Source: Nitratireductor sp. ZSWI3
Lineage (GTDB): Bacteria > Pseudomonadota > Alphaproteobacteria > Rhizobiales > Rhizobiaceae
Reading direction: 5' to 3'
NCBI RefSeq assembly: GCF_024655565.1
Contig: NZ_JANKOF010000001.1
Span: 186,001-250,000 of the forward strand
DNA length: 64,000 nucleotides
Both the position numbers and the translations under genes were made by a program. Positions 3,633 to 20,474 of the stretch are shown in pieces. The notes beneath the pieces were generated by a model, which saw nothing but the letters and a program-made list of their open reading frames with translations, was not told the origin of the DNA and ran no database searches. Each line of letters opens with the position of its first letter. Position 1 is the stretch's first letter.

Positions 3633-3634
3633 AC

Positions 3635-5758
3635 ATGGCAAGAAGCCTGATCGACAAGCAATTGATGGACATGTTCACACGGGAGGTGCAGGAGCGCGCG
3701 AGCGAATTCGAGCATCTGCTGCTTTCCCTGGAAGAACTGCAGGAGGTGCAGGCACGGCGGAGCGCGATGGAGCGGCTGCTGCGCATCGCGCACAGCCTGA
3801 AGGGCGCCGCCGGTCTGGTGGAGGTGCGCCCGGTCGAGGCGATCTGCCATAAAACGGAGGATCTGCTTGCCCTTCTCGTGCGAGAAGAACGCCCCGTCCG
3901 GAAGGATGAGTTCGATGCTTTGCTGGCAGCGGTAGACGCTGTCGGAGAATGCGGGCGCAAGCTGGCCGAAGGCGCGGGCCTCGATAAGACGTCGGTCCAG
4001 CCCGCCATGAATAAACTCCACGCCTCGCTGCAGGAGGCGCCGGGCGAGAAAGCCGCCGACGACGAAGCCGGGGCGGCTCAGGCAGGCAAGGCCTCCATGC
4101 CGCCCGTCCGTGTCACGGATCTCGACGGATCCATGCGGATTTCCGGAGAGCGGCTGGACACCCTTCTTTACCGGAGCGGGGAGCTGGTTGCGGCGAAATC
4201 CCGGCTCGCGTCGAAGGCTGCGGAAGCAAATTCATTGCGCGAGCAGGCGCGGCTCCTGCGTTCCTCCAACCAATCCCATTCGAGCACGCCCGTATCCCTG
4301 GAGCGCGATCTGCGGTCGCTGACTTCGGGTCTTGCAGAAGACGCGCGGCTGATCGGCAGTCTGGTGGATGCGCTTGACTATGAAATCCGGCGAGCGCGCA
4401 TGCAGCCTCTCTCGGAAGCCTGCCAGGGGCTTCCCCGACTGGTCCGGGACCTCGGCGCGGCATCCGGCAAAACGGCGGAGCTGCGTATCATCGGCGGCGA
4501 GATCGAGATCGACAGATCGATTGCCGCAGGGCTTCAGGACTGTTTGCGCCACCTTGTCCGCAATGCGATGAGCCACGGGATCGAGACACCCGACATCCGC
4601 CGCAAGGCCGGTAAACCGGGGAAGGGCCGCATCGACATCTCGGCCACGCTGTTGGGCGACCGTCTTCAGTTGCACGTCGAGGACGATGGACGCGGTTTCA
4701 ACGTCGCCTCCCTCGTCAGGGCCGCGCGTGATCTGGGCCTCCCTGAGCCGGTGGACGAGCGGCAGCGGCTGCGTCAGGCGTTCGAGCCCGGCGTGTCGAC
4801 CTCGCCGGCGCTCACCGAACTGTCGGGCCGCGGCGTCGGGCTCGACATCGTGCGCGAGACGGTCGAGGCGCTGCGAGGGACCGTGGAGGTCGCGCACGCA
4901 TCGAGCGGCGGCGCCGCCTTCACTATGACCCTGCCGCTGACCCTGGCCACGGTGCGGGCATTGGAGGTTTCCGTAGGCGGGCAGATCTTCGCCTTCGACA
5001 CCGCTTCGATCCGCCGGGTAGGCAGGGTGCGCACCGCCGCTCTGCCGAAGGCGGGGCAACGGAACGTTCTCGATGGCGAGGTGCGAATCCTCGACCTGGC
5101 TGACTGGCTTGGTCTTCCGGCAGCAAGCCTCACCGAGATGCCGGACCATCGCCCGGTGGTCTTCATCGGGCCGGCCGGCGGCGAAACCGCGGTGATCGTC
5201 GACCGGATCGTCGGAAAAGAGGAACTTCTCGTGCGTCCGTTGGGCCCCCGCCTTGCGAATCTGCGCTGCTACAGCGGCGCCACGGTTCTGACCGACGGTC
5301 GCGTGGCGCTGCTGCTGAGCACCGCTGCACTGGCGGAGGCAGCCATGTCGGAGGAACTGTTCGGAACCGACGCCTACACACGTCCACTGCCGCCGGTGCG
5401 GAAAGTCCTAGTGGTCGACGATTCCCCATCCGTACGGATGCTCGAAAAGCTCATTCTCGAAGCGGCCGGCTATACGGTCGTTCTGGCAGCAGACGGATCA
5501 GAGGCCTGGAAGCATTTGTGCGAGCATGGCGCCGATATCGTCGTGGCGGATATCGATATGCCGGAAGTCGACGGACTCGAGCTGACCAGAACCATAAGAC
5601 GATCCGGAAAGTTCGCCGGCCTGCCGGTCATTCTCGTGACCGGGCGGGATACGGCGGAGGAAAAGGCAGAGGGCCTGCAGGTGGGAGCTGATGCCTATAT
5701 CGCGAAGAACGGTTTCGACCAGCAGCTCTTCCTGGACACGGTCCGCCAGGTGGGTTGA
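3635..5758 (+). CDS. cheA: Hybrid chemotaxis kinase CheA with C-terminal receiver
   Basis: Sensor histidine kinase of 707 aa, WspE/FrzE-like. An N-terminal Hpt domain carries the phosphorylated His in IAHSLKGAAG (His53). A linker, dimerisation helices and the HATPase domain follow (N box LRHLVRNAMSHGIE, G box VEDDGRGFN, then GRGVGLDIVRE), then a CheW-like regulatory domain. The C-terminal receiver (about 587-705) keeps its acidic pair in VVDDSPSVRM, the phospho-acceptor in VADIDMPEVDG and the conserved Lys in AYIAKNG. No separate CheY is encoded here, so the fused receiver may be a phosphate sink or the output. It starts two bases after the receptor stop. Confidence 0.92.
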   Translation: MARSLIDKQLMDMFTREVQERASEFEHLLLSLEELQEVQARRSAMERLLRIAHSLKGAAGLVEVRPVEAICHKTEDLLALLVREERPVRKDEFDALLAAVDAVGECGRKLAEGAGLDKTSVQPAMNKLHASLQEAPGEKAADDEAGAAQAGKASMPPVRVTDLDGSMRISGERLDTLLYRSGELVAAKSRLASKAAEANSLREQARLLRSSNQSHSSTPVSLERDLRSLTSGLAEDARLIGSLVDALDYEIRRARMQPLSEACQGLPRLVRDLGAASGKTAELRIIGGEIEIDRSIAAGLQDCLRHLVRNAMSHGIETPDIRRKAGKPGKGRIDISATLLGDRLQLHVEDDGRGFNVASLVRAARDLGLPEPVDERQRLRQAFEPGVSTSPALTELSGRGVGLDIVRETVEALRGTVEVAHASSGGAAFTMTLPLTLATVRALEVSVGGQIFAFDTASIRRVGRVRTAALPKAGQRNVLDGEVRILDLADWLGLPAASLTEMPDHRPVVFIGPAGGETAVIVDRIVGKEELLVRPLGPRLANLRCYSGATVLTDGRVALLLSTAALAEAAMSEELFGTDAYTRPLPPVRKVLVVDDSPSVRMLEKLILEAAGYTVVLAADGSEAWKHLCEHGADIVVADIDMPEVDGLELTRTIRRSGKFAGLPVILVTGRDTAEEKAEGLQVGADAYIAKNGFDQQLFLDTVRQVG

Positions 5759-5763
5759 TTTCC

Positions 5764-6795
5764 ATGCTCCGCCTCCTCCTCGTGGCACGAAATGCGGAAC
5801 TGCAGTCGCTTGTCAGGCGGACGGTCGATCATGACGAGGGCGTCGAATTGGTCGGCATCGCCGGAGGCCAGCAGGAGGCGATCGAAGAGGTAAAGCGGCT
5901 CCGGCCCGACATCCTCGTCATAGAGCCAAAGCTGGATGGCCTCGAAGGCGCGGACGTGGTGAAGGAGATCATGGTCGAGGCTCCCCTGCCGATCGTCATG
6001 ATCTCTCCCGTTTCCGATCCCGACCTGGCGGGTCTTGCGATCGAGGCGCTGGCATCGGGAGCGCTGGCGATCCTTCCCGCGCCGCTGGAAGCCGACGGGC
6101 GGGTGGACGGGCCATCGGCGCGAAAATTCCTGTCGAGCCTCGCGGCCATGTCCCAGGTGAAGGTGGTGAGACGCTGGCGCACGCGAGGCAGCGCGCCTGC
6201 TCCTCAGGGCGCTCATCGTGAGCCTGTCCGGATCGTCGGGATCGTCGCTTCGACGGGCGGGCTGGCGGCGATCAAAACGATATTGAAGGGATTGCCGCCA
6301 CAGTTCCCCGTGCCGGTTCTTGCCGTTCAGCACGTCGCGAGCGGGCATATGGAAGCGGTCGCCGCTTCGCTCAACGTGGAAACCGCACTCACCGTCAAGG
6401 TCGCGGCAGACGGCGATATCCTCGCGCCGGCGACGGTCTATCTGGCGCCGGACGGGCGTCACATGGGTGTGAGCGGAAAGAAGCGGATCCGCATAGCGGA
6501 CGATCCGCCGCTCGACGGCTTCCGGCCGTCGGGGACATATCTCTTCTCCTCCTTGGCAGGCGCATTCGGCGATGGATGCCTCGCCGTCGTGCTCACCGGG
6601 ATGGGCAGTGATGGTACCGAGGGCCTCAAGGCGATCCGCGCCGCCGGCGGCCTGGCCATGGCTCAGGACGCCGCGAGTTCAGCCGTGTTCGGGATGCCCA
6701 AGGCGGCCATCGATTCCGGTCTGGTCGACCGCATCGTGCCCTTGGGCGAGATGCCCGCAGACATCGCGCGCCTCGCCGGCCTCGCCGTTTCCTGA
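5764..6795 (+). CDS. cheB: CheB methylesterase with degenerate receiver
   Basis: Protein-glutamate methylesterase reversing CheR methylation. The C-terminal catalytic domain is intact: nucleophile Ser in VASTGG, His in AVQHVASGH and Asp in TGMGSDGTEG. The N-terminal receiver is not: the usual DD pair near residue 8 reads LLLVARNAE, and the phospho-acceptor Asp is replaced by Glu in RPDILVIEPKLDG, where the alignment to WspF-type CheB runs without gaps. The esterase is therefore probably not activated by CheA phosphorylation. ATG 5764 follows a ggtggg ribosome site; a TTG at 5755 overlapping the cheA stop is the alternative start. Confidence 0.88.
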   Translation: MLRLLLVARNAELQSLVRRTVDHDEGVELVGIAGGQQEAIEEVKRLRPDILVIEPKLDGLEGADVVKEIMVEAPLPIVMISPVSDPDLAGLAIEALASGALAILPAPLEADGRVDGPSARKFLSSLAAMSQVKVVRRWRTRGSAPAPQGAHREPVRIVGIVASTGGLAAIKTILKGLPPQFPVPVLAVQHVASGHMEAVAASLNVETALTVKVAADGDILAPATVYLAPDGRHMGVSGKKRIRIADDPPLDGFRPSGTYLFSSLAGAFGDGCLAVVLTGMGSDGTEGLKAIRAAGGLAMAQDAASSAVFGMPKAAIDSGLVDRIVPLGEMPADIARLAGLAVS

Positions 6796-6835: not shown

Positions 6836-7807
6836 CTATTGAATGCCGGCGATCTGGATCGCAGCGGGTGTGATGATGACCGCGAAGAGAACGGGCAGGA
6901 AGAAGACGATCATCGGCACGGTGAGCTTGGGCGGCAGGGCGGCCGCGCGTTTTTCGGCCTCGCTCATGCGCATGTCCCTGTTTTCCTGCGCCATGACACG
7001 CAAGGCATGCCCCAGCGCGGTGCCGTATTTTTCTGCCTGGATCAGGCTGGTCACGACGGCGCGCACGCCCTCCACTCCGGTCCGCTTGCCGAGATTCTCA
7101 TAAGCCTGGCGGCGGTCCTGCAGGTAGGACAGCTCGGCGGTCGTCAACGCCACCTCCTCCGCGATCTCCGTGGATTGGGTGCCGATCTCCTCGGCAACCT
7201 TGCGGAATGCGCTCTCGATGCTCATGCCGGCTTCCACGGTGATCAGCAGCAGGTCGAGCGCTTCCGGCCAGGTGCGGCGGATGGCTTTCTGGCGCTTGGT
7301 GATCCTGTTCCTGATGTAGATGGCCGGAGCGAAATATCCGAGCGCTCCGATGGCGGCGGCAAGACCGAACACCGCGAAGACCGGTACCGCAGGCTTCAGC
7401 AGGAAGAGGAAATAAAGCGTGGCAATCGCAAACATCACGATCGGAGCGATCAGTCTCACGGCGAGGAACGTGGTCACCGGCGCGCTGCCGCGATAACCGG
7501 CCATCCGCAACCTGTCGGCGATCCCGCTGTCCTCGGCCTGCTTGGCAAGGTTGAAGCGCTCGACGATCGTCTTGAAAAGCTTGCGTGGCTCGCTGCGCAG
7601 CGACTTGGGCTTGTCTTCCGGGGCAAGGCGCGCCCGCTCACGCTTGCGCAGCAGCTCACGTTCGTTCTCCACCTTGCGCATGCGGCGGCCGAGATCGTCA
7701 CGGAACAGATAGGGCCACGACACCACGACGACGGCCGAGAATGCGGCAATGGCCGCCATGACCGCCGAGAGATGGTCGGGAGCGGGGATATAGGAGGTGA
7801 AACCCAT
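6836..7807 (-). CDS. tadC: Tad pilus inner-membrane platform protein TadC
   Basis: GspF/T2SF-family membrane protein of 323 aa. One N-terminal TM segment, two further central ones (IVMFAIATLYFLFLL and FAVFGLAAAIGALGYF) and one C-terminal one flank the conserved cytoplasmic T2SF domain (WPEALDLLLITVEAGMSIES ... YGTALGHALRVMAQENRDMR). With TadB it forms the platform turned by the CpaF ATPase during Flp pilus assembly. Last gene of the leftward tad operon, it converges on cheB with 40 bp between the two stop codons. Confidence 0.9.
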   Translation of the reverse strand: MGFTSYIPAPDHLSAVMAAIAAFSAVVVVSWPYLFRDDLGRRMRKVENERELLRKRERARLAPEDKPKSLRSEPRKLFKTIVERFNLAKQAEDSGIADRLRMAGYRGSAPVTTFLAVRLIAPIVMFAIATLYFLFLLKPAVPVFAVFGLAAAIGALGYFAPAIYIRNRITKRQKAIRRTWPEALDLLLITVEAGMSIESAFRKVAEEIGTQSTEIAEEVALTTAELSYLQDRRQAYENLGKRTGVEGVRAVVTSLIQAEKYGTALGHALRVMAQENRDMRMSEAEKRAAALPPKLTVPMIVFFLPVLFAVIITPAAIQIAGIQ

Positions 7808-7816
7808 CTCATAGCC

Positions 7817-8836
7817 TCAGAAATCGAAGTTGATCATCTTGCGCATGACAAGGATGCCCATGCCCATCCAGAGCGCACAGCCCACGAGCACCAGCTTGCC
7901 GGTCAGGGTCGTGAACAGCAGCGACATGTAGTCGGGACTGGTCACATACACGGCCGCGGATACGAGAAACGGCAGCGCGCCGATAATGCCGGCGGATGAT
8001 TTCGCCTCCGAACTCATCGCCTTGATCTTGGCGCTCATCTTCTTGCGTTCGCGCAACACCTTGGAGAGGTTGCCGAGTGCTTCCGAGAGGCTGCCGCCGG
8101 TGCGGCTCTGCAGCGCGATGACGATGGCAAAGAAGTTGGCTTCCGGCAGGGGGACGCGTTCCCACAGCCTTTGAACCGCTTCGTCGAGAGGGATCCCCAG
8201 GGTCTGGTCCTGGACGATCGACACGAATTCGCTGCGGACCGGCTCCTGCGCCTCGGTCGCGATCACGCGCAGGCAATCTCCCATGGGCAGGCCGGATTTC
8301 AGGCCGCGCACGATCACATCGATGGCATTGGGGAACTCCGCCGTGAAGCCCTTGAAACGCCGTTTGCGCAGCATCCCGACATAAAGATGCGGCAGCAGCA
8401 GCCCGCCCGCCACGGCAAAGCCGAGGGAGACGAGCATTCCGGCTCCAGAGACAAAGGCAAGCAGCAGGGACGCGGCCCCCGAGACGGCGCAGGCGATGTA
8501 ATAGCGCTTCGTCGACCAGCTCAGGCCCGCCTGCCTGATCCTGCCTGAAAGCGTTGGCTTGCCGGCCTTCCTGCTCTTCGCCTTTTGTTTTTCCTCGAGC
8601 TCCCGCAGCGTCTTTTCCACCGATCTGCGGCGGTCGCGCTCCTCGTCGGCCGAGGGTGCGGCACCCGCTTCAGCATCGGCGGTCGCCAGACCCTGAAAAC
8701 GCCGCTTGAAGGAACTGGGCTGGGCAAGCCGCGGGTAAAAGACCGCCGCGGTCACTCCTGCGACGCTCAGCGTCGCGAAGGCGAACACCACAATCGGAAA
8801 GAAGGTCGGTCCGAACAACGAACTCAATTCAGTCAT
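7817..8836 (-). CDS. tadB: Tad pilus inner-membrane platform protein TadB
   Basis: T2SF-family protein (339 aa), partner of TadC. One N-terminal TM, a charged linker with the basic stretch KQKAKSRKAGK, paired central TM segments, a T2SF domain (FPNAIDVIVRGLKSGLPMGD ... SRTGGSLSEALGNLSKVLRE) and C-terminal TM segments (LFTTLTGKLVLVGCALWMGM). The ATG at 8836 is preceded by gagagg. A GTG one codon upstream gives a two-Met start. Nine bases separate its stop from tadC. Confidence 0.9.
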   Translation of the reverse strand: MTELSSLFGPTFFPIVVFAFATLSVAGVTAAVFYPRLAQPSSFKRRFQGLATADAEAGAAPSADEERDRRRSVEKTLRELEEKQKAKSRKAGKPTLSGRIRQAGLSWSTKRYYIACAVSGAASLLLAFVSGAGMLVSLGFAVAGGLLLPHLYVGMLRKRRFKGFTAEFPNAIDVIVRGLKSGLPMGDCLRVIATEAQEPVRSEFVSIVQDQTLGIPLDEAVQRLWERVPLPEANFFAIVIALQSRTGGSLSEALGNLSKVLRERKKMSAKIKAMSSEAKSSAGIIGALPFLVSAAVYVTSPDYMSLLFTTLTGKLVLVGCALWMGMGILVMRKMINFDF

Positions 8837-8848
8837 CACACCGTCCTC

Positions 8849-10264
8849 TCAGGCTGCCGCTTTCGTTTCCGCGGCGTCCAGCGCCGCCGCAAGCCGGGCC
8901 TCCTCGCCGTAGTAGCGAGCCCGGTCCCAGAAGGCCGGACGGCCGATGCCGGTGGAGCGGTGCCTGCCGATCAGCTTGCCGTTGGCGTCCTCGCCGAGGA
9001 TGTCGTAGACGAAAAGATCCTGGGTGGTGACGACGTCGCCCTCCATTCCCAGGACCTCGGTGATGTGGGTGATGCGGCGCGAGCCGTCGCGGAGGCGGGC
9101 GGCCTGGACGATCACGTCCACCGATGAAACGATCATCTCGCGAATGGTCTTCGAAGGCAGCGCGAAGCCGCCCATGGTGATCATGGATTCAAGGCGCGAA
9201 ATCGCTTCGCGCGGTGAGTTGGCATGCAGCGTTCCCATCGAGCCGTCATGGCCGGTGTTCATCGCCTGCAGGAGATCGAAGGCCTCCGGCCCGCGCACCT
9301 CGCCGACGATGATGCGCTCGGGCCGCATGCGCAGGCAGTTCTTGACGAGGGCCCGCATGGTGATCTCGCCCTGTCCCTCGATGTTCGGCGGCCGCGTTTC
9401 CAGGCGGACCACATGCGGCTGCTGCAGCTGAAGCTCTGCCGCGTCCTCGCAGGTGATGATGCGCTCGCCCGGTTCGATGTAGCCGGTCAGGCAGTTGAGC
9501 AACGTCGTCTTGCCCGATCCCGTGCCGCCGGAGATCAGCACGTTGCAGCGGACGCGGCCGATGATCCTCAGGATCTCGGCCCCCTCCGGCGTGATCGAAC
9601 CGAAGCGCACGAGCTGATCGAGGGTCAGCTTGTCCTTCTTGAATTTGCGGATGGTGAGGCTGGGTCCGTCGATCGCCAATGGAGGTGCGATGACGTTGAC
9701 GCGCGAGCCGTCCGCCAGGCGCGCATCGCAGATCGGGCTCGATTCATCGACGCGGCGGCCGACCTGGCTGACGATACGCTGGCAGATGTTCAGAAGCTGT
9801 TCGTTGTCGCGGAAGCGGATGCTGGTCTCTTGCACCTGCCCGCCCACTTCGATGAAGACCTGCCCCGCACCGTTGACCATGATGTCGGCGATGTCGTCGC
9901 GCTTGAGCAGCGGCTCGAGCGGGCCGTAGCCCAGAATGTCGTCGCAGATCTCGCCGAGCAGCGTGTCCTGCTCGGCCTGCGAGAGGCCGGCCTTCTTGGC
10001 GGCGACGATGTCGTTGACGATCGCACCGATTTCCTGGCGGGCCTGAAGCTCCTCCATCGTCGACAAAGCAGCCACGTCGATGGCGGCGATGAGCGTGCTG
10101 AAGACGTCTTTCTTCAGATGGTAGTAATGGTCCGGTTTTCCCGCGGAGATGCGCGCCGGTGCTGCCGCCGGCTTTTGCGGCAGGCGTGCCGGTTCCGGCT
10201 CGGCGATCGGAAGAGCCTTGCTTTCAACGGACTGAACTTGCGCGGCGGATTTTCTGCCAATCAT
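8849..10264 (-). CDS. cpaF: CpaF/TadA secretion ATPase
   Basis: Hexameric traffic ATPase of 471 aa powering Flp pilus polymerisation. After a variable, Pro/Ala-rich N-terminus and the CpaF N-domain, the core contains Walker [13 protein letters not shown], an Asp box, Walker [21 protein letters not shown] and a His box [16 protein letters not shown]. Length and order match the CpaF family. It lies directly downstream of the pilin terminator, so its expression should depend on readthrough from the pilin promoter or on a weak internal promoter. Confidence 0.95.
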
Positions 10265-10361: not shown

Positions 10362-10535
10362 TTAGAGGGTGGGGTTCAGCCGGTTGGCGATCGCCTGGAA
10401 CGTGTTGCTGACGTCTGTGCCGACGAGGCCGACGGCCGTGATGATGACGACGGCGATGAGGCCGGCGATGAGGCCGTATTCGATCGCGGTCGCGCCGGAT
10501 TCATTCTTGGCGAAGCGGGTGACGAGGTTCTTCAT
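10362..10535 (-). CDS. flp: Flp/Fap-family type IVb pilin
   Basis: Major Tad pilin of 57 aa. The short basic leader MKNLVTRFAKNESG is followed by ATAIEYGLIAGLIAVVIITA, the Flp signature; cleavage is expected after the Gly of ESG, with Glu and Tyr at mature positions 4-5. The prepilin peptidase is CpaA at 13779-14291. I prefer ATG 10535 because it matches relatives such as Caulobacter PilA; an in-frame ATG at 10547 would add MDRI. It has its own upstream region of ~260 bp and its own terminator. Confidence 0.92.
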   Translation of the reverse strand: MKNLVTRFAKNESGATAIEYGLIAGLIAVVIITAVGLVGTDVSNTFQAIANRLNPTL

Positions 10536-10796
10536 GATTCGATCCATCTACTGGTTGCTGGGTTGCGCCGACACCACCATGGATCGGCGTCACAGGCTGT
10601 CGGTCGGTTGCCTCATCGCTCTGTGTGAGCCTCATATAGCTGCGTTAACCATGGCGCTCCATTCAGCCTGATGGCCGACCGCTTTGGCGCGATCTTCGGC
10701 CACATGGCCTAATACGCCTGCTCGGGTCGGCACGGCGGATGCCGTGCGCACGTCATTCGTCCGGCTGGGGTCTTCGAAGCTGCGCGATGCTGGGCT
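10536..10796. promoter_or_regulatory. Upstream region of flp (probable pilin promoter region)
   Basis: A 261-bp non-coding stretch between tadE and flp. It contains an 8-mer TTAACCAT (10645-10652) matching the CtrA half-site described in Caulobacter, and a 16-bp sequence ccattcagcctgatgg (10659-10674) that recurs upstream of tadG. It also holds a GC-rich hairpin (GCACGGC / GCCGTGC, 10730-10747) with no T-run. No -35/-10 pair stands out. Pilin genes are CtrA targets in Caulobacter; the link here is inference from motif and position. Confidence 0.45.
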
Positions 10797-11216
10797 TCAG
10801 CTTACCGGAATGCGTCTGGAGACGCTGAGAGCGAGAGGACTGTCGCTGACGCCCGGTACGAGGAAGGTGAACGGATAGCGGATCGACAGCGTGCGATACG
10901 GCACGCCGTCGACGGTTTCTACACCGACCGCGATCTGCAGCTGATCCACATCTCCGTCGAAAGCGTCACGAATGGCGTTTTCAAATCCGATGGCAGCCTC
11001 GCTCGCAGAAGCACCGGCAGGTATCTGACCGATCAGCACCTTACGGGCGGCGACGTCCGCCGCATAAGCCAAGTCGTTGCGTATGAAAAGGGCGCGGCCG
11101 AACTCGACGACGCCGAGGCTGACCAGGAGCAGGGGCATGCAGACGATCGCAAATTCGACCGCCGCCGCCCCCGACCGGCATTTCGCGAGGCGATTGAGCG
11201 CGCGCAGCATGGGCAT
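10797..11216 (-). CDS. tadE: TadE-like pseudopilin
   Basis: Minor pilin-like protein of 139 aa. After a short basic leader comes SGAAAVEFAIVCMPLLLVSL, the TadE signature of a Gly-type processing site and a membrane helix, followed by a ~100-residue periplasmic domain. Probably processed by CpaA and needed for pilus assembly. The ATG at 11216 overlaps the stop of the upstream cpaE-tadE gene (TGATG), so the two TadE-type domains are translationally coupled. A GTG at 11219 is an alternative. Confidence 0.82.
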   Translation of the reverse strand: MPMLRALNRLAKCRSGAAAVEFAIVCMPLLLVSLGVVEFGRALFIRNDLAYAADVAARKVLIGQIPAGASASEAAIGFENAIRDAFDGDVDQLQIAVGVETVDGVPYRTLSIRYPFTFLVPGVSDSPLALSVSRRIPVS

Positions 11217-12961
11217 CACTGAATCTGGATTTCGGCGGACGAACTCAGCCGGAAATCCGCCAGTATCTCCGGCAGCGACATGGCGTCGTAGGTCTTCGAA
11301 GCCTGTAGCCGGTAGAACACGAACGGCGCTGCCGAGCTTGCACAGGAAACCGTGCAGGCCGGCGCGTCGGCAGGCGCCACGTCGGCGTTTTCCGGGCAGG
11401 CGCAGTAGCGTTTCACCAGGTCGAAAGTGACCCCCGCAGAGGTTCCTGTCTGCCCGAGGGTGGATTCCATCACTTTCTGCACTGCGGCCTCGCCCGGATC
11501 GGACATTGCCGCCTGTGCGCCGGCGCGCAGCGCGTGGTCCATGGCCGTGCGTTCATGAAGGGCGAGCCCCACATCCGCCATTGCCACCAGCGAAAACGCC
11601 AGGACCGGCGCGATGAGCGCGAATTCGACGGCGGAAACACCGCTCTCGGACGAAGCCAGTTCCGCCGCCTTGCCGTTGGCAAAAGGCAGCTTGTCCTGCC
11701 AGCGGCGGCGCCTGAATGTTCCCAGGAACGCCTGCAGCTGGAATTTCTTTCCGCTTCTCTTGTCACGCTGGCCACTCACCCGCCACGCCAGCTCGCTCAT
11801 CGCCCGCGCAGCCTTCGAGCCACGGGCGACTTTCGTCACCATACGGCCTTCGTTGGCAGCTTTGCCGAACGCCGGCGCGTCGAACGGCACCGTCACCCAT
11901 TGCTCCACGCCGACCGCCGCCGCAAAGTCCTTGAGCTTGACTTCCGGCAGTTTCGGCGTGCCGACGCGATTGAGGACGAGCCGTGGGGGCGGATCGTTTG
12001 GTCGGGCCTTTTTGAGAAACTCGATGATGTTCTTGGCATTGCGCATGCTCGCCAGGTCCGGCGTTGCGGTTATGACGATCTCATCCGCGCTCAGCAGCGC
12101 CTTCTTCGTCCACGGGGTCCAAAGATGCGGAATGTCGAGGACGAGATGCCACGAACTCGATCTGGCGACGTCCAGCAGCCGGTCGACGTCTTCCTCTTTC
12201 AGGTTGAAGGACCTGTCGAAGGCGGCATTGACGGGCAGCAGGTGCAAACGTTCCGAGTGCTTCACCGCGATACGCTTGAGCAGGACTTCATCGACGCGAT
12301 CCACGCCGTCGATGACGTCCGCCATTCCCTGGGGCGCATCGACGTCGAAATCCAGGCCGACTGTGCCGAATTGCAGGTCGAGGTCGGCGACAAGGACGTC
12401 GGCGTCCGACCGGTCCACCATCGCGGCGGCCACGTTGTGGGCGATCGTGGAGGATCCGCTGCCTCCTTTGGCGCCGATGAAGGCGATGATGCGCCCCAGT
12501 TTCTGCTCGACCGAATTGCGGAAGCAGCGCGACACAGCCTCGACGAACGCCATGGGCGCGACGGGGGCGACGAGATAGTCGTCCACGCCCGCTTCGACGA
12601 GCTCGCGATAAAGATTGACGTCGTTGGAAGAGCCGATGACGATCACCTTGGTGCCGGCGATGCATTCGAGCGCCAGCGCTTCGAGCTCCGCCATGAGCTT
12701 TCCATTCTGCTCATGGCTTTCGACGACGACGAGGTTCGGCGAGGGTGTGCCTCGATAGAAGGAAGCAGCCTCGGCCATGCCGCCGTCGCGGACCGACAGG
12801 CTGGCCCGCACCATGCGGCGGTCAAGCGCGCCGGTGCGGATCGCCTCTGCCAGATCCGCGGACCTGCAGAAGGCGGTGATGTCGATCTTCGGGATCGTGT
12901 GCAGCACCTGAGGCGCGTTGATGGGATCCATGTCCCGTTCTTCAATTGCGATCTGGGTCAT
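11216..12961 (-). CDS. cpaE: CpaE/TadZ ATPase fused to a TadE-like pseudopilin domain
   Basis: A 581-aa protein joining two Tad components usually made separately. Residues ~25-150 form a receiver-like N-domain. Residues ~155-410 are a MinD/ParA ATPase with a deviant Walker A (IGAKGGSGSST, ~162-172) and DLDLQFGTVGLD, as in CpaE/TadZ, which localises pilus assembly. After a basic linker (GTFRRRRWQDKLPF) a complete TadE-like unit begins at ~435: SESGVSAVEFALIAPVLAF as processing-site-like and membrane segment, then a periplasmic-type region with four clustered Cys (CAC...ACTVSC). The ATG at 12961 follows the cpaB stop by one base; an earlier GTG at 12976 is possible. Confidence 0.85.
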   Translation of the reverse strand: MTQIAIEERDMDPINAPQVLHTIPKIDITAFCRSADLAEAIRTGALDRRMVRASLSVRDGGMAEAASFYRGTPSPNLVVVESHEQNGKLMAELEALALECIAGTKVIVIGSSNDVNLYRELVEAGVDDYLVAPVAPMAFVEAVSRCFRNSVEQKLGRIIAFIGAKGGSGSSTIAHNVAAAMVDRSDADVLVADLDLQFGTVGLDFDVDAPQGMADVIDGVDRVDEVLLKRIAVKHSERLHLLPVNAAFDRSFNLKEEDVDRLLDVARSSSWHLVLDIPHLWTPWTKKALLSADEIVITATPDLASMRNAKNIIEFLKKARPNDPPPRLVLNRVGTPKLPEVKLKDFAAAVGVEQWVTVPFDAPAFGKAANEGRMVTKVARGSKAARAMSELAWRVSGQRDKRSGKKFQLQAFLGTFRRRRWQDKLPFANGKAAELASSESGVSAVEFALIAPVLAFSLVAMADVGLALHERTAMDHALRAGAQAAMSDPGEAAVQKVMESTLGQTGTSAGVTFDLVKRYCACPENADVAPADAPACTVSCASSAAPFVFYRLQASKTYDAMSLPEILADFRLSSSAEIQIQ

Positions 12962-12962
12962 G

Positions 12963-13766
12963 TCAGCTGCCTTCACGGCCGAAAGAGGGGAACTCGACGG
13001 TCCTCAAAGTGTCGCCGCCGAAAATCCGTATGGTCCTGGTGCGCTTCGCTTCCGCCATGATTGCGGTGGGCTCGGCCTTGTCGGAGGCGGCGCGCAGGGC
13101 CAGCGAGATGGAGCCCGACGCTTCGGCTGCCGTGATCAGGGGAATCTGCTGCGGATCCACCTCGAGCGTGGCGGTCTTGCCGACGACGGGAGCCCCGTCG
13201 CTCACGCCGGTCGCGGTTTGATCGACAGCGAGAACGCGGATGTTGGAGAGGATCGTTCGGCTCGACACTTTTTCCCCGCCCTCCTGTCCGGAATTCACCC
13301 TGGTGTGGATGAGATCCACGCGGTCGTTCGGCAGGATGAACCCCCCTGCCGTGCTCTCGGCCGTAACCCGAACGGCAATCGCACGTTTTCCTGAGGGGAG
13401 CTGACCGGACAGGAAGCCGGCGCCCGGCTGGGCGAGCCGGTCGTCACGGATCGGCTCGCCGGCCACGAATCCGCCGCGCACCAGTGAGCCCTTGAGCGCC
13501 TCGGGTGCGTCCGGCTGCGCAGCACGGCTCATGAAGACGGCCGGGACGTCTCCCGCCGTCCACGGCTGCCAACGCAGATCCGTTTCCTTGAGCACGGTTC
13601 CATGCGCAAGGTTGGATGCGGCCACCAGCACTTCCTTGTCGGGCGCCGCCACCTCGTCGGTGACGACGGCCGCGGACGCGGTCGGCTGGCCGGCCGTTCC
13701 CATGGCCAGCCATGCGGCGACACCGCCGCAGGAAAGCGCCAGGACGAGAATGAGGATACGGAACAT
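12963..13766 (-). CDS. cpaB: CpaB/RcpC pilus assembly protein
   Basis: Periplasmic, membrane-anchored Tad component of 267 aa. An N-terminal TM/signal segment (FRILILVLALSCGGVAAWLA) is followed by a SAF domain (VLVAASNLAHGTVLKETDLR) and the RcpC/CpaB C-domain (AIAVRVTAESTAGGFILPND). CpaB normally partners the secretin CpaC and the lipoprotein CpaD, encoded next to it; here the next gene is cpaE and no secretin gene is in the window. Confidence 0.9.
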   Translation of the reverse strand: MFRILILVLALSCGGVAAWLAMGTAGQPTASAAVVTDEVAAPDKEVLVAASNLAHGTVLKETDLRWQPWTAGDVPAVFMSRAAQPDAPEALKGSLVRGGFVAGEPIRDDRLAQPGAGFLSGQLPSGKRAIAVRVTAESTAGGFILPNDRVDLIHTRVNSGQEGGEKVSSRTILSNIRVLAVDQTATGVSDGAPVVGKTATLEVDPQQIPLITAAEASGSISLALRAASDKAEPTAIMAEAKRTRTIRIFGGDTLRTVEFPSFGREGS

Positions 13767-13778
13767 CTCTTTGCCTCG

Positions 13779-14291
13779 CTAGATAACGGCTGAGAAGGAC
13801 GGGCTATCGGCCAGGAGCAGGAGTGCAGCGACCGACAGGGCGACGCCATAGGGAACGCCGTGCGAGGCCCCGAGCAGCCGCCCTGTCCATGCCGCCTGCT
13901 GCAGAAAACCGGGCAACGGCATCCGTCGGAGCTGGATCAACGCCAGGGTGAACAGCGCACCGACCACCGCGACGTAGAGGAGATAGGTGAATGCCTGATC
14001 CGCGCCCAGCCACAGAACGGCCACCGCGGCAAGCTTCGCGTCGCCCCCGCCGATCCAGCCAAGGGAGAAAAGCAGGAAAGCGCCTGCAAGCACGATCGCC
14101 GCGACGGACGCGGCCGTGAGCATCTCGTCGGATCCGACCCCGGCAAGGGGCGCGAAAACCATATAGGCGGCGGCCAGCAGCAGCACGAGCCGGTTTGTGA
14201 TCGTCATCGTCGCCACATCCTTCAGTGCGGCATAGATCATGCCGCCCGCGAAAAGGAGGAGTGCAGCCCATGCTGCAAAGGTGGAGATCAT
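13779..14291 (-). CDS. cpaA: Prepilin peptidase CpaA/TadV
   Basis: Inner-membrane aspartyl protease of 170 aa that removes leaders from Flp and TadE-type prepilins. It has several TM segments and two catalytic Asp regions: the first in ALKDVATMTITNR, the second in WIGGGDAKLAA (the GxGDxK motif of type IV prepilin peptidases). It is short and lacks the N-methylation domain, as usual for CpaA. I start at ATG 14291, which has ggag about eight bases upstream, rather than at 14327. Confidence 0.9.
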   Translation of the reverse strand: MISTFAAWAALLLFAGGMIYAALKDVATMTITNRLVLLLAAAYMVFAPLAGVGSDEMLTAASVAAIVLAGAFLLFSLGWIGGGDAKLAAVAVLWLGADQAFTYLLYVAVVGALFTLALIQLRRMPLPGFLQQAAWTGRLLGASHGVPYGVALSVAALLLLADSPSFSAVI

Positions 14292-14510
14292 CTCGGGCTC
14301 CGGTAAGGTTTGAGCGGGAGACGGCACCGATGAACGATGGCGAGCCCGCAGTTGCCGGCAATTTGATGCTTGGCCGCCGAAAGCGCCATTCAGCCTGATG
14401 GTCTAATGCCACGGGCCGTCCCGTCGGCGGGACTAGGCCGTGTGGCTGAATCGAGCAGGAGCGTGCAAACCGCTATATCGGCGGCCATCACTGCAATGCC
14501 GGAGATGGCT
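14292..14510. promoter_or_regulatory. Divergent promoter region cpaA / tadG with repeat shared with flp
   Basis: A 219-bp non-coding region separating the leftward tad operon from the rightward TadG-like gene. It carries a second copy of ccattcagcctgatgg (14386-14401, same orientation as the copy at 10659-10674), followed in both places by a related ctaat-type sequence. The copy here lies ~95 bp from the cpaA start and ~110 bp from the tadG start. Nature unknown; a shared regulatory element is plausible. Confidence 0.4.
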
Positions 14511-15800
14511 ATGAAGCTGCATTCCCGCACCGCGAAGCACCGAAGCCGGCCGGGCCTCCCCGGCAGGCTGGCCCGAGACGAAAAGGGCGCGGTGGCCGTC
14601 GTCGCGGCCATCGTGTTTCCTGTGGTCATCGGCGCGATGGGGCTCGGTGCGGAAACCGGCTACTGGTTTCTCAAGCAGCGTAAGCTGCAGCATGCGGCGG
14701 ACGTGGCCGTCTATGCGGCCGCGGTTCGTTATCGTGCCGGAGACGCCCAGGCCGCGATGGAAGCGGCCGCCCTGCGCACGGCGCGCGGCACCGGCTATCA
14801 GCCCGACATAGGCACCCTCTTGGTGGAGCCCTCGTCGGGATCGACGACAACGAGCGGAAAGATCTCGGTTGAACTGACCGAAACGCATGCGCGGCTTTTC
14901 TCCTCGGTCTTTTCCAGTGAACCGCTCGTTCTTGCCGCTCGGGCCGTCGCCGAGGTGAAGGGCGGCTCGAAAGCATGCGTCCTCGCGCTCTCGACGTCGG
15001 TCTCGGGCGCCGTCACCGTGACGGGATCGACGGACGTGAAGCTGACGGGATGCAGCGTCGCCGCGAATTCGACTGCGACGGATGCGTTCCTGATGCGGAA
15101 CGGCAGCGCCCTCATGTCGACCGACTGCGTGTATTCCGTCGGCGGAGCGATCACCACAACGGGCCTGACCTTGACCGGCTGCAGCCAGCCTGTGGTCTCT
15201 GCTCCGCCCGTCTCTGACCCCTTTGCCGACATCGTCGAACCGGACGAAATGCAGATCGACCAGCTTCCTTGCCGGTCGCTGTCCCACATCTCGACCTCAA
15301 CCTATTCGTTCGACACGTTTCCCACGGGCGAGGAGGCGCTTCGTTTTTGTGGAGGGCTGGACATCAAGGGCACCATCGTCCTCAAGCCCGGTCTCTACAT
15401 CATCGACGGCGGTGAGCTTACGGTGACGGCAGGGGCATCGCTTACCGGCAATGGCGTGACCTTCCTGCTCGCCAATGCGGCAAGGGCCAACCTGACCGGA
15501 AATTCCGACATCACGCTTTCCGCCCCGACAACCGGCCCCTATGCCGGCTTGCTGCTGTTCGGCAGTCGCCTTGGAACGGGCGTTGGTCATACCGTCACGG
15601 GCAACACCGAATGGAGCCTGCAGGGTGCGATCTACACACCGACCGGAGCGATCGATTTCACGGGCAACTCCACCGTGACCGGCGGGTGTCTGCAGATCGT
15701 CGCCGACCGCGTCACCTTCACCGGCAACTCCACCATGGAGACCTGCACCGACGAGGCGAACAAGATCGTCGTCGGGCGGACTGTTGCGATCGTGGAGTGA
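14511..15800 (+). CDS. TadG-like pilus/surface protein with beta-helix-like repeats
   Basis: A 429-aa protein with a TadE/TadG-type N-terminus (RDEKGAVAVVAAIVFPVVIG, one TM) followed by the TadG N-domain (KQRKLQHAADVAVYAAAVRY). From about residue 150 the sequence turns to short, Thr/Gly/Asn-rich strands with recurring TGN motifs (LTGNG, LTGNS, VTGNT, FTGNS twice), suggestive of a beta-solenoid exposed in the periplasm or beyond. The ATG at 14511 has ggag six bases upstream; the longer frame from 14370 runs through the divergent promoter region. Transcribed opposite to the main tad operon. Confidence 0.8.
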   Translation: MKLHSRTAKHRSRPGLPGRLARDEKGAVAVVAAIVFPVVIGAMGLGAETGYWFLKQRKLQHAADVAVYAAAVRYRAGDAQAAMEAAALRTARGTGYQPDIGTLLVEPSSGSTTTSGKISVELTETHARLFSSVFSSEPLVLAARAVAEVKGGSKACVLALSTSVSGAVTVTGSTDVKLTGCSVAANSTATDAFLMRNGSALMSTDCVYSVGGAITTTGLTLTGCSQPVVSAPPVSDPFADIVEPDEMQIDQLPCRSLSHISTSTYSFDTFPTGEEALRFCGGLDIKGTIVLKPGLYIIDGGELTVTAGASLTGNGVTFLLANAARANLTGNSDITLSAPTTGPYAGLLLFGSRLGTGVGHTVTGNTEWSLQGAIYTPTGAIDFTGNSTVTGGCLQIVADRVTFTGNSTMETCTDEANKIVVGRTVAIVE

Positions 15801-15874: not shown

Positions 15875-16618
15875 TTATTCGGATGTCGCCCCGGCGGCGG
15901 GAAGTTCCATTTCGGGGAAGCGGTTTGCCTTCTGTCCGGCGAGCAGCACCCAGTTTTGCAGAGCGTCCAGCTCGGAAGACTGCGGCAGTTGCTCGCCGCG
16001 CAGATCCGGCGGCACCTGCCAGCCCGGATCGATGCCCTCCATGTTCGGCAATTCGTGCGCGATACCCTTGTGGCAGTCGATGCAGGTCGCCTCGCCGGAC
16101 AGCAGGTAGCGCGTGTGGATCTCCGCTGCCCGCGCCGTCTGCCGCGACAGGTCCATGGCCACCGAGGAATGGCAGTTGCGGCACTCAAGGCTGTCATTTG
16201 CTTTCAGGCGCGCCCATTCATGCTGGGCGAGTTCGAGACGCTTGTCGAGAAACTTGCGGCGGGTGCTGATCGTCCCGAAGATCTTGCCCCACACCTCCTT
16301 CGACGCCTGCATCTTCCGGGCGATCTTGTCGGTCCATTCATGCGGTACGTGACAATCCGGGCATGAGGCGCGCACACCTGACCGGTTGGCGAAGTGGATG
16401 GTGCGGGTGAGCTCCTCGTAGACGTTGGTCTCCATCTCGTGACAGGAGATGCAGAAGGCCTCGGTGTTGGTGATCTCGAGTGCCGTGTTGAACGCGCCCC
16501 AGAAGATCACGCCCCCGAGAAAGCCGCCGAGCGTCAGGAACCCCAGGCTCAGCGTCGCCGCCGGCGTGCTGACGAGCGACCAGGCCCAGCGCACGACCCG
16601 CTTGATCCGCCCGAGCAC
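15875..16618 (-). CDS. napC: NapC tetraheme c-type cytochrome
   Basis: Membrane-anchored quinol dehydrogenase that passes electrons from ubiquinol/menaquinol to NapB-NapA. One N-terminal TM ([20 protein letters not shown]) precedes four CXXCH haem sites (CISCH, CPDCH, CRNCH, CIDCH). At 247 aa it is somewhat longer than usual at the C-terminus. The start is GTG, directly abutting the napB stop. Last gene of napEFDABC, converging with the TadG-like gene. Confidence 0.95.
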
Positions 16619-17116
16619 CTATTCGTCTCCCGCATGCTCGACGCCCAGCTCGATCATGTCCTTGAAGACGTTGTCGACGAGCGGGGCGGTGTCGGCCTGG
16701 GGGACGTGACAAGCCGTGCAGAAATAGCGGCGCGGCGAGACATCGGCCAGCATCTGGCCGTCGCGGTTCATGTAGTGTGTCACGCTGATCATCGGTGCGC
16801 CGGAGCCTTGCGTGAACTCGCGCTTGTGGCAGGACAGGCAGCGGTTTGTGTTGACCGACAGCTGATAGCCCTGGATGGAATGGGGGATGACCGGCGGCTG
16901 TTCGGGATAGGCGCGCATCTTGCGCACGTCGTCCGTGACCCAGCGGGGAATGGGATCGGCCGCGACATTGTCCATCGGCGGATTGGCGCCCGAAAGTTCG
17001 GGAACCGCGCTCATCTGGGCAAGGGCCGCTGAGCCGGTGACTAGGATCGACAGGAGCGCTGCGAGAGCGTATTTCTGCCGCGCGCTCAGGCGAGACGTTC
17101 TATCTTCACCGCGCAT
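16619..17116 (-). CDS. napB: NapB diheme cytochrome subunit
   Basis: Small periplasmic electron-transfer subunit of nitrate reductase, 165 aa. A Sec-type signal ([20 protein letters not shown]) is followed by two haem motifs, CLSCH and CTACH, and by the expected distal ligand histidines ([18 protein letters not shown]). The ATG at 17116 overlaps the napA C-terminus by 31 bases, suggesting coupling. The frame stays open upstream, but that part is napA shadow. Confidence 0.93.
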
Positions 17117-19590
17117 TTCTTGAAATCCGTCTGTTTGGAAATGGGGTCGGTGGCATCCAGCGTCACCTTGTTGATGAGTTGGCTGGCGTCGAACCAGGGC
17201 ACGAAGACGACACCGCGCGGCATGCGGTTGCGGCCCTGCGTCTCGATCCTGCTTCTGATTTCGCCGCGCCGCGAGACGACGCGCACCTCCATGCCCTGGT
17301 TGAGGCCTTTGCGGCGCGCATCGTCGGCGTTCATGAAGCATACGGCACCCGGAAAGGCGCGATAGAGCTCGGGAACGCGCATTGTCATGGAGCCGGAATG
17401 CCAATGCTCCAGAACGCGCCCGGTGACGAGCCACAGGTCGTATTCATCGTCCGGGGACTCCGCGGGCGGCTCGTAGGGCACGGCGAGGATGACCGCCCGC
17501 CCGTCCGGCCGGCCGTAGAACTTCACGCCTTCGCCGGGCTTCACGTAAGGGTCGTGTCCCTCACGGTAGCGCCAGCGCGTCTCCTGGCCGTCGACCACCG
17601 GCCAGCGCAGGCCGCGCTCCTGGTGGTAGCGGTCGTAGGGCGCCAGATCGTGCCCGTGGCCGCGCCCGAACTCGGCATATTCCTCGAACAGGCCCTTCTG
17701 TATGTAGAAGCCGAATTCGGTTGCTTCGTTGTTGGCGTATTCCGGGTCCAGCTCGTCGAGCGGGAAGCGGTCCACCTTGCCGTTGCGGAACAGGATGTCG
17801 AACAGCGTGCGCCCGCGATAGTCCGGGTTCGCCGAGAGCATGTCCTCGGGCCACACCTCGTCGGTGGTGAAGCGCTTGGAGAATTCGGCGAGCTGCCACA
17901 GATCCGACCGCGCCTCGCCGGGCGCCTGGACGAGCTGGTGCCACACATGGGTGCGCCGCTCGGCATTGCCGTAGGCGCCTTCCTTTTCCACCCACATGGC
18001 GGCCGGCAGGATGACGTCCGCCGCCATCGCGGTGACCGTCGGATAGGCATCGGAGACGACGATGAAATTGTCCGGATTGCGGTAGCCGGGATAGGTCTCC
18101 TGGCTGTTGTTGGGCGCCGCCTGAAGATTGTTGTTGACCTGGATCCAGTAGAAATTGAGCAGGCCGTCACGAAGCATGCGGTCCTGCTGCACGGCGTGGT
18201 AGCCCGGCTGATCCGGCAGCAATCCCTCGGGCAGCCCCCAGATTTCCTCGGCATGATGCCGATGCTCGGGGTTTGTCACCACCAGATCGGCCGGCAGGCG
18301 GTGCGCAAACGTTCCGACCTCGCGCGCCGTGCCGCAGGCCGAAGGCTGCCCGGTCAGCGAGAACGGGCTGTTGCCCGGCTCGGAGATTTTTCCGGTCAGG
18401 AGATGGATGTTGTAGACCATGTGATTGGCCCACACGCCGCGCACATGCTGGTTGAAGCCCATGGTCCAGAGCGACATCACCTTCTTTGCGGGGTCGGCGT
18501 AAAGCTCGGCCAGCTCCTCCAGAAATCCCGGGTCGGCGCCCGAAAGCTCGGCCGCCATCTCGAGCGTGTAGTTCGACACGAACTGCTTGAAGGTCTCGAA
18601 GTCGATGGGCTCCATGCGGCCGGGATCGGAGGCGCCGGTGGCGTTGATCTCGAGCTCGTGCTCCGTCCTGAGCCCGTAGCCGATGTCGACGACGCCGCGC
18701 ATGAAGGTGGTGTGGTCGTTGATGAATCGCTCGTTGACCCGGCCCGTCTGGATGATGTGGTTGGCGATGTAGTTGAGGATGGCAAGATCCGTCCCGGGCT
18801 TGAAGATGATCGGGATGTCGGTCAGGTCCATCGAGCGGTGGGTGAAGGTGGACAGCACCGCGCAGCGCACATGCGGATTGCCAAGCCGGCGGTCGGCGAC
18901 CCTGGTCCACAGGATCGGGTGCATCTCGGCCATGTTGGAGCCCCACAGGACGAAGGCGTCCGCGTGCTCGAAATCGTCGTAGCAGCCCATCGGCTCGTCG
19001 CTGCCGAAGGCGCGGATGAAGGCGGTCGCCGCCGAGGCCATGCAATGGCGGGCGTTCGGGTCGAGATTGTTCGAACGGAAGCCTGCGCGCATCAGCTTGG
19101 TCGCCGCGTATCCCTCGAAGATCGTCCACTGGCCGGAACCGAACATGCCGATGGCGGTCGGCCCCTTGTCGCGCAGCACCTGTTTGCACTTGTCGGCCAT
19201 GACGTCGAAGGCCTCGTCCCACGAGACCGGCTCGAAGTCGCCCTCCTTGTCGAAGACGCCGTTCCTCTTGCGCATCAGCGGCGTGGTGAGGCGGTCTTCG
19301 CCATACATGATCTTGGACAGGAAATAGCCCTTGATGCAGTTGAGGCCGCGGTTGACCTCGGCCTGCATGTCGCCGTGGGTGGCGACCACCTGGCCGTCCT
19401 TGACGCCGACCATCACGCCGCATCCGGTGCCGCAGAAGCGGCACGGCGCCTTGGACCATTTGATCTCCAGCGCGCTGACCCCGCCGGGAACGGGTTGTGC
19501 GGAGGCCGGGAGCGCTATTCCCGCCGCTGCCGCCGCGATGGCTGCCGCCTGCGCCTTGAGCACGTCGCGTCGGGTCGGTTCGGCCGTCAT
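17086..19590 (-). CDS. napA: Periplasmic nitrate reductase catalytic subunit NapA
   Basis: Reduces nitrate to nitrite at a Mo-bis-MGD centre in the periplasm; 834 aa. A Tat signal (TRRDVLKAQ, then an Ala-rich h-region) directs export of the folded enzyme. The [4Fe-4S] ligands are in CRFCGTGCG plus Cys of LNCIKG, and the Mo ligand Cys is in [12 protein letters not shown]. The start overlaps the napD stop by four bases (ATGA). Confidence 0.97.
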
Positions 19591-19850
19591 GATGGTGTCT
19601 CCTCCAGTTCCTCGACATGTTCGAACACCATGTTCGCGGCGATGACGCCCGGGGTCAGGGCGATCGATGCCAGCCTGTCGCCCAGCTCTCCGGTGCTGCG
19701 CCCTTCCATGACCACGACGATGCGCGCCGCATCGTGAGCGTGGACCTCGGTGGCCTGCATGGCGGAGATCGCGGCGATCACGGCCTGGGCGCGTTCCGGC
19801 CGCACGCAGACGACCGCGCTCGATACATGCAGGAAGGACCGCTCAGGCAT
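19587..19850 (-). CDS. napD: NapD chaperone for NapA Tat signal
   Basis: Small cytoplasmic protein (87 aa) of the NapD family, which binds the NapA Tat signal peptide and delays export until the Mo cofactor is inserted. Recognised by [20 protein letters not shown] and [17 protein letters not shown] and by its position between napF and napA. It overlaps both neighbours by a few bases. Confidence 0.9.
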
Positions 19851-20130
19851 GGACAGCCTCGCGATGCTCCGGCATCAGGCTGATCGCCCCGACCGGACAG
19901 GTCGTTATGCATCGCCCGCAACGCGTGCAAAGGTCGTCTGCGAGTTCGGGAACGAACAGTCTGCCTGGCCCCGGCCTGAAACCGATCGCGTCCTCGGGGC
20001 AGGCATCGCGGCAGGCCATGCAGGCCACGCCCGAGCGGGCCAGGCAGGCATCGGCGATCTCGATCGCTGCCTCGCCGCCGGCCGCCCCGGATGTGCGCCA
20101 GTTGCCGGTCAGGAAGAGCCTGCGGTTCAT
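19843..20130 (-). CDS. napF: NapF ferredoxin-type protein (short form)
   Basis: Cytoplasmic iron-sulphur protein, thought to help mature NapA. Only 95 aa with two cluster sets: Cys29...CMACRDACPEDAI and CTRCGRCITTCPV. Longer NapF proteins have additional clusters. The N-terminus MNRRLFLTGNWR is typical of the family. The frame continues upstream to 20430, but that stretch overlaps napE in another frame, so I start at ATG 20130. Confidence 0.85.
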   Translation of the reverse strand: MNRRLFLTGNWRTSGAAGGEAAIEIADACLARSGVACMACRDACPEDAIGFRPGPGRLFVPELADDLCTRCGRCITTCPVGAISLMPEHREAVHA

Positions 20131-20149
20131 GGGCGTGTCCGACAATCGC

Positions 20150-20344
20150 TCAGCCTCCCGGCGGTCCCGGAGGGCCGAAGACGATCTGCCACATCCACAC
20201 GAGAAAGCCGTAGCCGCCGACGACGCCGACGGCGAGGATCGGCCAGATGCCGAAAGCCAGCACCAGGAAGGTGAGCAGTTCCTTCCGCCTGGGAGCGCGG
20301 CCCATATCGCCCGCTGCGGCCAATTCCTGTTTGTCCTGGGGCAT
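20150..20344 (-). CDS. napE: NapE small membrane protein
   Basis: First gene of the nap operon, 64 aa. A charged N-terminus with RRKELLTFL precedes one TM helix (LAFGIWPILAVGVVGGYGF), the NapE pattern; it ends in Gly/Pro-rich sequence. Its function is not established in the family. A promoter must lie in 20345-20474, but I see no clear FNR box (TTGAT-N4-ATCAA) there. Confidence 0.85.
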   Translation of the reverse strand: MPQDKQELAAAGDMGRAPRRKELLTFLVLAFGIWPILAVGVVGGYGFLVWMWQIVFGPPGPPGG

Positions 20345-20474
20345 GAGAACCTCATGTGCCTTGGACCCGCGCCCAGTCTCCTCCGCGGCGCTTCGCCGCG
20401 ATGATAACGCAGGCGGACGAGGAATTTCAACGCGCGGTTATGGGAATATCATCCGGCCCGCATGCCCGGAGTGC

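Follow-up and report, generated by a model that had tools for sequence, protein, structure and literature searches.

The window analyzed here, a 64,000-nucleotide stretch of the Nitratireductor sp. ZSWI3 genome, raises the question of whether the pilus ATPase CpaE/TadZ and the membrane pseudopilin TadE are really made as one chain and, if so, what becomes of that chain.

A cpaE-tadE fusion gene

A first-pass annotation had reported a continuous 581-codon frame at 11216 to 12961 without naming its strand. The coordinates were right, and the strand is minus: 581 sense codons run from an ATG at 12961 to a stop at 11216 to 11218 with no internal stops, and an in-frame GTG lies upstream of that ATG, at 12976. 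A plus-strand reading of 11216 to 12961 as a gene contains a stop and was ruled out. The gene and its parts, with the basis of each call, are as follows.

11216..12961, minus: cpaE-tadE fusion gene, 581 codons plus stop (frame, Pfam, intact orthologues)
12512..12889, minus: receiver-like (REC) domain, residues ~25 to 150 (4MYR match, AlphaFold2 model)
11768..12493, minus: ParA/MinD-type ATPase domain, residues 157 to 398 (Pfam, alignment, structure matches)
11642..11767, minus: basic linker, residues 399 to 440, with SES directly before the site (pLDDT, dN/dS)
11624..11641, minus: predicted prepilin-peptidase site, G441^VSAVE446 (Gly and Glu in 35/35 fused rows; TadE domain starts here)
11219..11641, minus: TadE pseudopilin domain, residues 441 to 581, a hydrophobic helix and then a four-Cys domain (Pfam, model, standalone relatives)

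A CpaE/TadZ, a linker predicted to be disordered, and a TadE pseudopilin are thus joined in one minus-strand chain, and the fusion is real. The earlier description of a receiver-like and ParA-type CpaE followed by TadE was borne out by Pfam, by a structural match, and by the hydrophobicity and cysteines of the C-terminal part. Pfam placed AAA_31 at residues 157 to 320 (E = 2.3e-12, above the cut-off) and TadE (PF07811) at residues 441 to 482 (E = 2.1e-9; 37.8 bits against a cut-off of 22.9), and NCBIfam returned only MinD/ParA-type models for the fusion protein, all under their curated cut-offs. Residues 22 to 152 resembled 4MYR, the solved receiver-like domain of Sinorhizobium meliloti CpaE2, in a sequence search (E = 1.3e-45) and in Foldseek (TM score of 0.97 by target length, 60% identity); the domain also matched 4N0P (Caulobacter CpaE). 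The ATPase domain carries a Walker A-like KGGSGSS, which follows the pattern KGG[ST]GSST in the alignment, with the first Lys replaced by Arg in one row (G145). The six most hydrophobic 19-residue segments of the protein all fall within residues 442 to 468, and four Cys lie within its C-terminal 80 residues, as they do in 35/35 fused rows.

The full-length AlphaFold2 model was modest (mean pLDDT, 70.9; pTM, 0.42), with low confidence at residues 197 to 252. Values of pLDDT fell below 50 across the linker (residues 399 to 436), and the pilin helix began at residue 439. The TadE domain was modeled as a long helix, a second helix, and three strands (mean pLDDT, 80.7). A fold search of this model against the PDB gave no significant match (best E = 0.49), and a sequence search of the domain against solved structures gave none either (best E = 0.11).

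The chain has an atypical receiver domain, a ParA/MinD-like ATPase with a deviant Walker A (the term in the accessible text of PMC13170226), and a place in a tad/cpa cluster, all features of CpaE/TadZ proteins. It also has the PF07811 domain, the GXXXXEF site (G441^VSAVEF; motif as given in the accessible text of PMC10934763), and the hydrophobic helix of TadE pseudopilins. A CpaE/TadZ protein, however, is a soluble chain that ends after the ATPase, whereas this frame runs on into TadE (cleavage would restore the ending), and a TadE has a short hydrophilic leader on a separate gene, whereas the leader here is 441 residues long. By its domains and its site the protein fits both families, as CpaE and TadE joined in a single chain, but without the separate chain or the short leader.

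Organization of the Tad cluster

The minus-strand gene order is cpaA, cpaB, cpaE-tadE, second tadE, flp, cpaF, tadB, and tadC; a TadG-like gene diverges from them on the plus strand. The genes around the fusion are as follows.

14370..15800, plus: TadG-like protein with Tad N-terminal domain (Pfam, synteny)
13779..14327, minus: cpaA prepilin peptidase (Peptidase_A24), both Asp motifs (Pfam, motif reading)
12963..13766, minus: cpaB/rcpC (Pfam, NCBIfam)
10797..11219, minus: second TadE-type pseudopilin, start overlapping the fusion stop (frame, Pfam)
10362..10547, minus: Flp/Fap major pilin (Pfam)
8849..10264, minus: cpaF/tadA ATPase (Pfam, NCBIfam)
7817..8839, minus: tadB-type platform protein (T2SSF) (Pfam, synteny)
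6836..7807, minus: tadC-type platform protein (T2SSF) (Pfam, synteny)

A second TadE joined to the fusion by stop/start overlap had also been claimed, correctly: its GTG overlaps the fusion stop by 4 nt at 10797 to 11219 on the minus strand, and the same overlap occurs in 21/21 full-length named-species loci. The CpaA of the operon keeps both Asp motifs, KD...T and GGGD, which we take to hold the two catalytic aspartates. Four secretin matches were found in the genome, none of them inside this cluster.

Distribution of the fusion

The same architecture, which the first-pass annotation had proposed to look for in related genomes, was found in 10/394 sampled genomes of the same family (the window's own, two of genus g90, and seven of genus g45) and at 21 loci of named species. 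Among the matches listed, the share with the fusion was 7/7 in g45, 2/7 in g90, and 1/10 in the window's own genus. The named-species loci came from a scan of 84,980 species genomes with the fused alignment, which is pattern based, can miss relatives, and may omit the window's own genome; 21 of its 22 loci hold an intact full-length fusion, namely, those of Chelativorans alearense, C. multitrophicus, C. salis, one Mesorhizobium MAG, and 17 Sinorhizobium/Ensifer genomes. The 22nd (L142) is a fragment matching residues 89 to 136. Among plasmid records, 73/215 matches cover at least 80% of the query, and those listed at that coverage are from Sinorhizobium. The S. meliloti plasmid records listed share 58.5 to 60.7% identity with the window's fusion, most of them over residues 1 to 581 and in the same cluster. 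In RefSeq, one such plasmid gene carries the single annotation "AAA family ATPase," and a TadE comes next with an overlap of 4 nt.

In wider searches, among the matches listed, only the window's own reached past residue 480, both in the order (397 genomes, E ≤ 1e-112) and in the class (385 genomes, profile of the fused rows, E ≤ 1e-60), at strict cut-offs and with sampling by which divergent fusions could be missed. One order match (G614; query residues 21 to 480, with a stop inside) was considered as a near-fusion and rejected, as its sequence is cpaE and then cpaF, with no tadE.

A 14-row alignment was built from the 10 genome copies and 4 of the 73 plasmid records with at least 80% query coverage. 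Together with the 21 named-species loci it gave 35 fused rows, which reduce to 28 distinct sequences because 7 genes occur in both sets, and which contain 27 distinct junction segments. Two loci were left out of these rows: L142, as a fragment, and that of S. meliloti RCAM1115 (L033), for a stop in its linker.

Predicted processing site and fate of the fused chain

The first-pass annotation had offered membrane anchoring and cleavage as alternatives and chosen neither; the sequence leans to cleavage, on the Gly found in 35/35 rows, the CpaA motifs, and the lack of a common internal start. Across the 35 fused rows, with their 27 distinct segments, there is no variation at Gly(-1), Ser(+2), Ala(+3), Glu(+5), or Phe(+6). 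The pattern that located the junction segment included Gly, Glu, and Phe, yet 0/35 rows failed to match it. None of positions -21 to -2 is invariant, with Glu -8 and Leu -7 nearly so (25/27 distinct segments); the last eight leader residues are fairly conserved, which blunts the contrast at Gly(-1). According to the accessible text of PMC10191384, prepilin peptidases have two conserved Asp residues and act at the cytoplasmic face near the membrane. The residue before their cut is a small one, and Glu(+5) is important for assembly (PMC10191384, PMC6497953, as accessible). In S. sanguinis, Gly(-1) to Ser blocks processing and Gly to Ala does not (PMC6497953, accessible text).

CpaA probably cuts the fusion after Gly441 into CpaE and TadE. 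We favor cleavage because Gly(-1) and Glu(+5) are invariant, the linker is modeled as disordered, with the pilin helix starting at residue 439, and CpaA has its Asp motifs. Since linker residues 399 to 436 are predicted to be disordered, the folded ATPase need not block the site. Cleavage is also favored by the likeness of the TadE half to standalone pseudopilins that carry this site after an ordinary leader. Against it, TadE proteins typically have Gly(-1) and Glu(+5), whose persistence may be partly a matter of descent, with Glu(+5) of importance in assembly as well, and no processed prepilin is known to us whose leader is of such length.

Under cleavage, the fused chain would enter the inner membrane via its TadE helix, with CpaE cytoplasmic and the four-Cys domain periplasmic. 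The operon's CpaA would then cut after Gly441, freeing CpaE (441 residues, ~48 kDa) and mature TadE (140 residues, ~14.5 kDa); the calculated masses are 62.6 kDa for the full chain and 48.1 and 14.5 kDa for the two products. Freed CpaE could enter the ring that CpaE forms around CpaF, and mature TadE, together with the second TadE and the TadG-like protein, would help to prime the pilus tip, where roles for minor pilins of the TadE/F/G type have been proposed (PMC12075869 and PMC13170226, as accessible). CpaE would then be a giant leader peptide, and both products would be made 1:1 at the membrane. We infer the topology, the cleavage, the tip role, and a gain from co-delivery, as we do the direction of the fusion. 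In situ modeling in Caulobacter gives six CpaE dimers per machine (PMC13170226, accessible text), and since few tip pseudopilins are presumably needed, a 1:1 supply looks wasteful. The chances seem about even that the gene encodes a natural polyprotein matured by prepilin peptidase, with a 48-kDa ATPase as leader and positioning and priming parts supplied 1:1 and released at CpaA. The uncut precursor could also act as a checkpoint, retaining the tip pilin at the CpaE ring as long as CpaA has not acted. If true, a prepilin peptidase would here separate two parts of one machine.

It is unlikely, though a serious alternative, that the chain stays uncut and that TadE is a permanent transmembrane anchor fixing CpaE, and hence the position of the motor, at the inner membrane. 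The order of cytoplasmic ATPase, basic segment, hydrophobic helix, and periplasmic-type domain makes a workable topology, and CpaE has been modeled as an inner-membrane-associated ring, with minor pilins at the machine base before assembly (PMC13170226, accessible text). Joined parts also have a precedent in PulL of the T2SS, a pilus-type machine with two joined components (PilM-PilN), although these are different proteins (PMC10191384, accessible text). Under this reading, the TadE anchor would replace reversible binding via the CpaE C-terminal amphipathic helix; hydrophobic moments of the CpaE C-terminal tails were 0.42 to 0.69 in 14 fused proteins versus 0.25 to 0.70 in 7 unfused ones, and the tail is predicted to be disordered. 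To our knowledge, the PulL joint has no prepilin-peptidase site. An anchor, however, would have no need of Gly(-1), yet of the last 21 residues before the cut it alone is invariant, and the four TadE-domain Cys kept in every fused row are beyond an anchor's needs. In addition, a dominant negative effect has been suggested for unprocessed PilE1 of S. sanguinis (PMC6497953, accessible text).

Partial processing, in which a full-length anchor would coexist with cleaved products at a ratio set by CpaA access or pilus state, seems improbable. It draws on the same sequence facts as the cleavage and anchor readings, and a very long leader could slow cleavage, but nothing sets it apart from full cleavage.

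TadE might also be made alone by internal initiation, in which case the fusion would matter little. In-frame ATG, GTG, or TTG codons do occur at residues 380 to 440 in 13/14 rows, but G145 has none, and no start position is common to all 14, the most frequent (388) being present in 5/14. The linker, moreover, appears to be maintained as protein: dN/dS across residues 400 to 436 was 0.07 to 0.32 in 6/6 pairs, indicating purifying selection, its GC3 of 0.76 is of the coding type, and its length differences are in frame. Internal initiation is thus very unlikely to be the explanation.

The first-pass annotation had named a stop or frameshift at the junction as grounds for rejecting the fusion. 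The frame is open in the 14 family genome and plasmid rows and in the 21 named-species loci, and the junction is intact in 28 distinct sequences, but not every isolate has it whole: in the linker of S. meliloti RCAM1115 (CP050559.1), CpaE is parted from TadE by an in-frame stop, possibly a natural variant or a sequencing error. Despite this stop and two plasmid records, CP130055 and CP130046, that align with the fusion in 2 and 3 pieces, an assembly or frame artifact or a decaying gene can practically be dismissed, given intact copies in 21 named-species assemblies and 10 family genomes (7 of them the same genes) and dN/dS of 0.03 to 0.32 in all four regions of 6 pairs.

Origin of the fusion and unfused relatives

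Standalone CpaE/TadZ proteins such as Caulobacter CpaE (4N0P) likewise combine a receiver-like domain with a ParA/MinD-type ATPase and belong to a tad cluster. The unfused CpaE relatives that were read, unlike the fusion, end after a basic tail, without a pilin domain, and standalone TadE proteins (G207, G668, G653, G199, and others) are encoded by separate genes and have short leaders. In a CpaE tree of 76 rows (67 different, as several gene copies are duplicated), the fused ATPase domains formed one clade with a support of 100/100. A search with the TadE part matched 12/394 family genomes: all ten with the fusion and two more, G207 and G199, in which cpaE and tadE are separate and overlap by 4 and 7 nt, respectively, in different frames. 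These two genomes share the order cpaB, cpaE, tadE, second tadE, cpaF, tadB, tadC, and TadG-like, with the TadG-like gene in both, and flp in G207, placed otherwise than in the window. Relatives that all encoded two separate genes would have argued against the fusion; unfused G207 and G199 exist, yet the whole clade is fused.

In an order sample of 387 genomes, eight others had a similar TadE, which comes after a TadG-like match in 8/8 and before a second TadE in 7/8, the eighth being at a contig end. Of the ten genomes with a standalone TadE, G492 (L113) and G475 (L114) were missed by the pattern and left out of the TadE comparison. The fused TadE rows formed one group (91/96, under the starred level) beside G207, G668, and G653. 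Identity to the fused domain was 50% for G207, 41% for G668, 41% for G653, and 35% for G199, with four more distant standalone TadEs at 22 to 33%. The standalone proteins share the GXXXXEF site, and 7/8 of those read have four Cys, with two in G199.

The data are read most simply as one frame-joining event at a cpaE/tadE pair that overlapped, with the direction inferred from gene order and tree: a single ancestral event would have joined cpaE to a pseudopilin gene overlapping it in another frame. Origin from the G207 lineage itself was unsupported; in the CpaE tree, where placement is subject to long branches and a midpoint root, G207 CpaE groups with family f28, and G199, G060, and G046 are nearer the fused clade. 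An attempt to class the fused TadE by tree as CpaJ or CpaK was abandoned because chromosomal paralogues sit on very long branches.

The fusion in Sinorhizobium meliloti

CpaE2 (sma1573) of the pSymA flp-2 Tad cluster in S. meliloti is apparently the same fusion, a link to the cpaE2 locus tag that rests on the gene order in PMC10934763 and on the 4MYR match. In the accessible text of that paper, cpaE2 is named a docking protein, and the words "fusion," "fused," "chimer," and "bifunctional" are all absent from the main text; the wider literature searched, in which most subscription papers are absent, held no mention of a CpaE-TadE fusion in its accessible portions. The flp-2 cluster makes pili, as concluded from deletions of pilA2, cpaF2, and the two platform genes sma1564 and sma1562, with cpaE2 left undeleted there, and it has no homologues of smc04118 (CpaK-like; CpaK = TadF), cpaC1, cpaD1, or smc02824 (PMC10934763, accessible text). 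The C-terminal half of CpaE2 would be a second pseudopilin of the flp-2 cluster, hidden by annotation, whether CpaK or another TadE type. A tractable laboratory species with a functional flp-2 pilus, S. meliloti offers a direct route to testing a cut against an uncut fusion. The fusion may thereby serve as a natural handle on the route of CpaE/TadZ to the membrane and on minor-pilin priming of the pilus, two questions of Tad biology.

Genomic surroundings

The source genome (G000) holds at least two tad-type loci beyond the one in the window: another tad cluster on contig C77, whose separate CpaE has 43% identity, and a more distant one on C2. Further TadE matches lie on C2 and C15, the C15 gene being without another Tad match in the 10 kb read.

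A chemosensory operon at 42 to 6795 on the plus strand abuts the Tad cluster and encodes CheR with TPR, CheW, an MCP with HAMP, a CheA-receiver hybrid, and CheB, a make-up that we presume to be like that of a Wsp-type system. In Chelativorans (L085, L086) and S. meliloti (L030), too, CheA- and CheB-like genes adjoin the fused cluster. This proximity suggests chemosensory control of the pilus. Beyond the TadG-like gene, at 15875 to 20430, lies a periplasmic nitrate-reductase-like cluster, judged from the look of its translations, whose genes we take to be those of NapA, NapB, and NapC. Long antisense open reading frames also occur, including one of 508 aa opposite the fusion (11534 to 13060, plus strand); these look like products of the high GC content (0.643) rather than genes.
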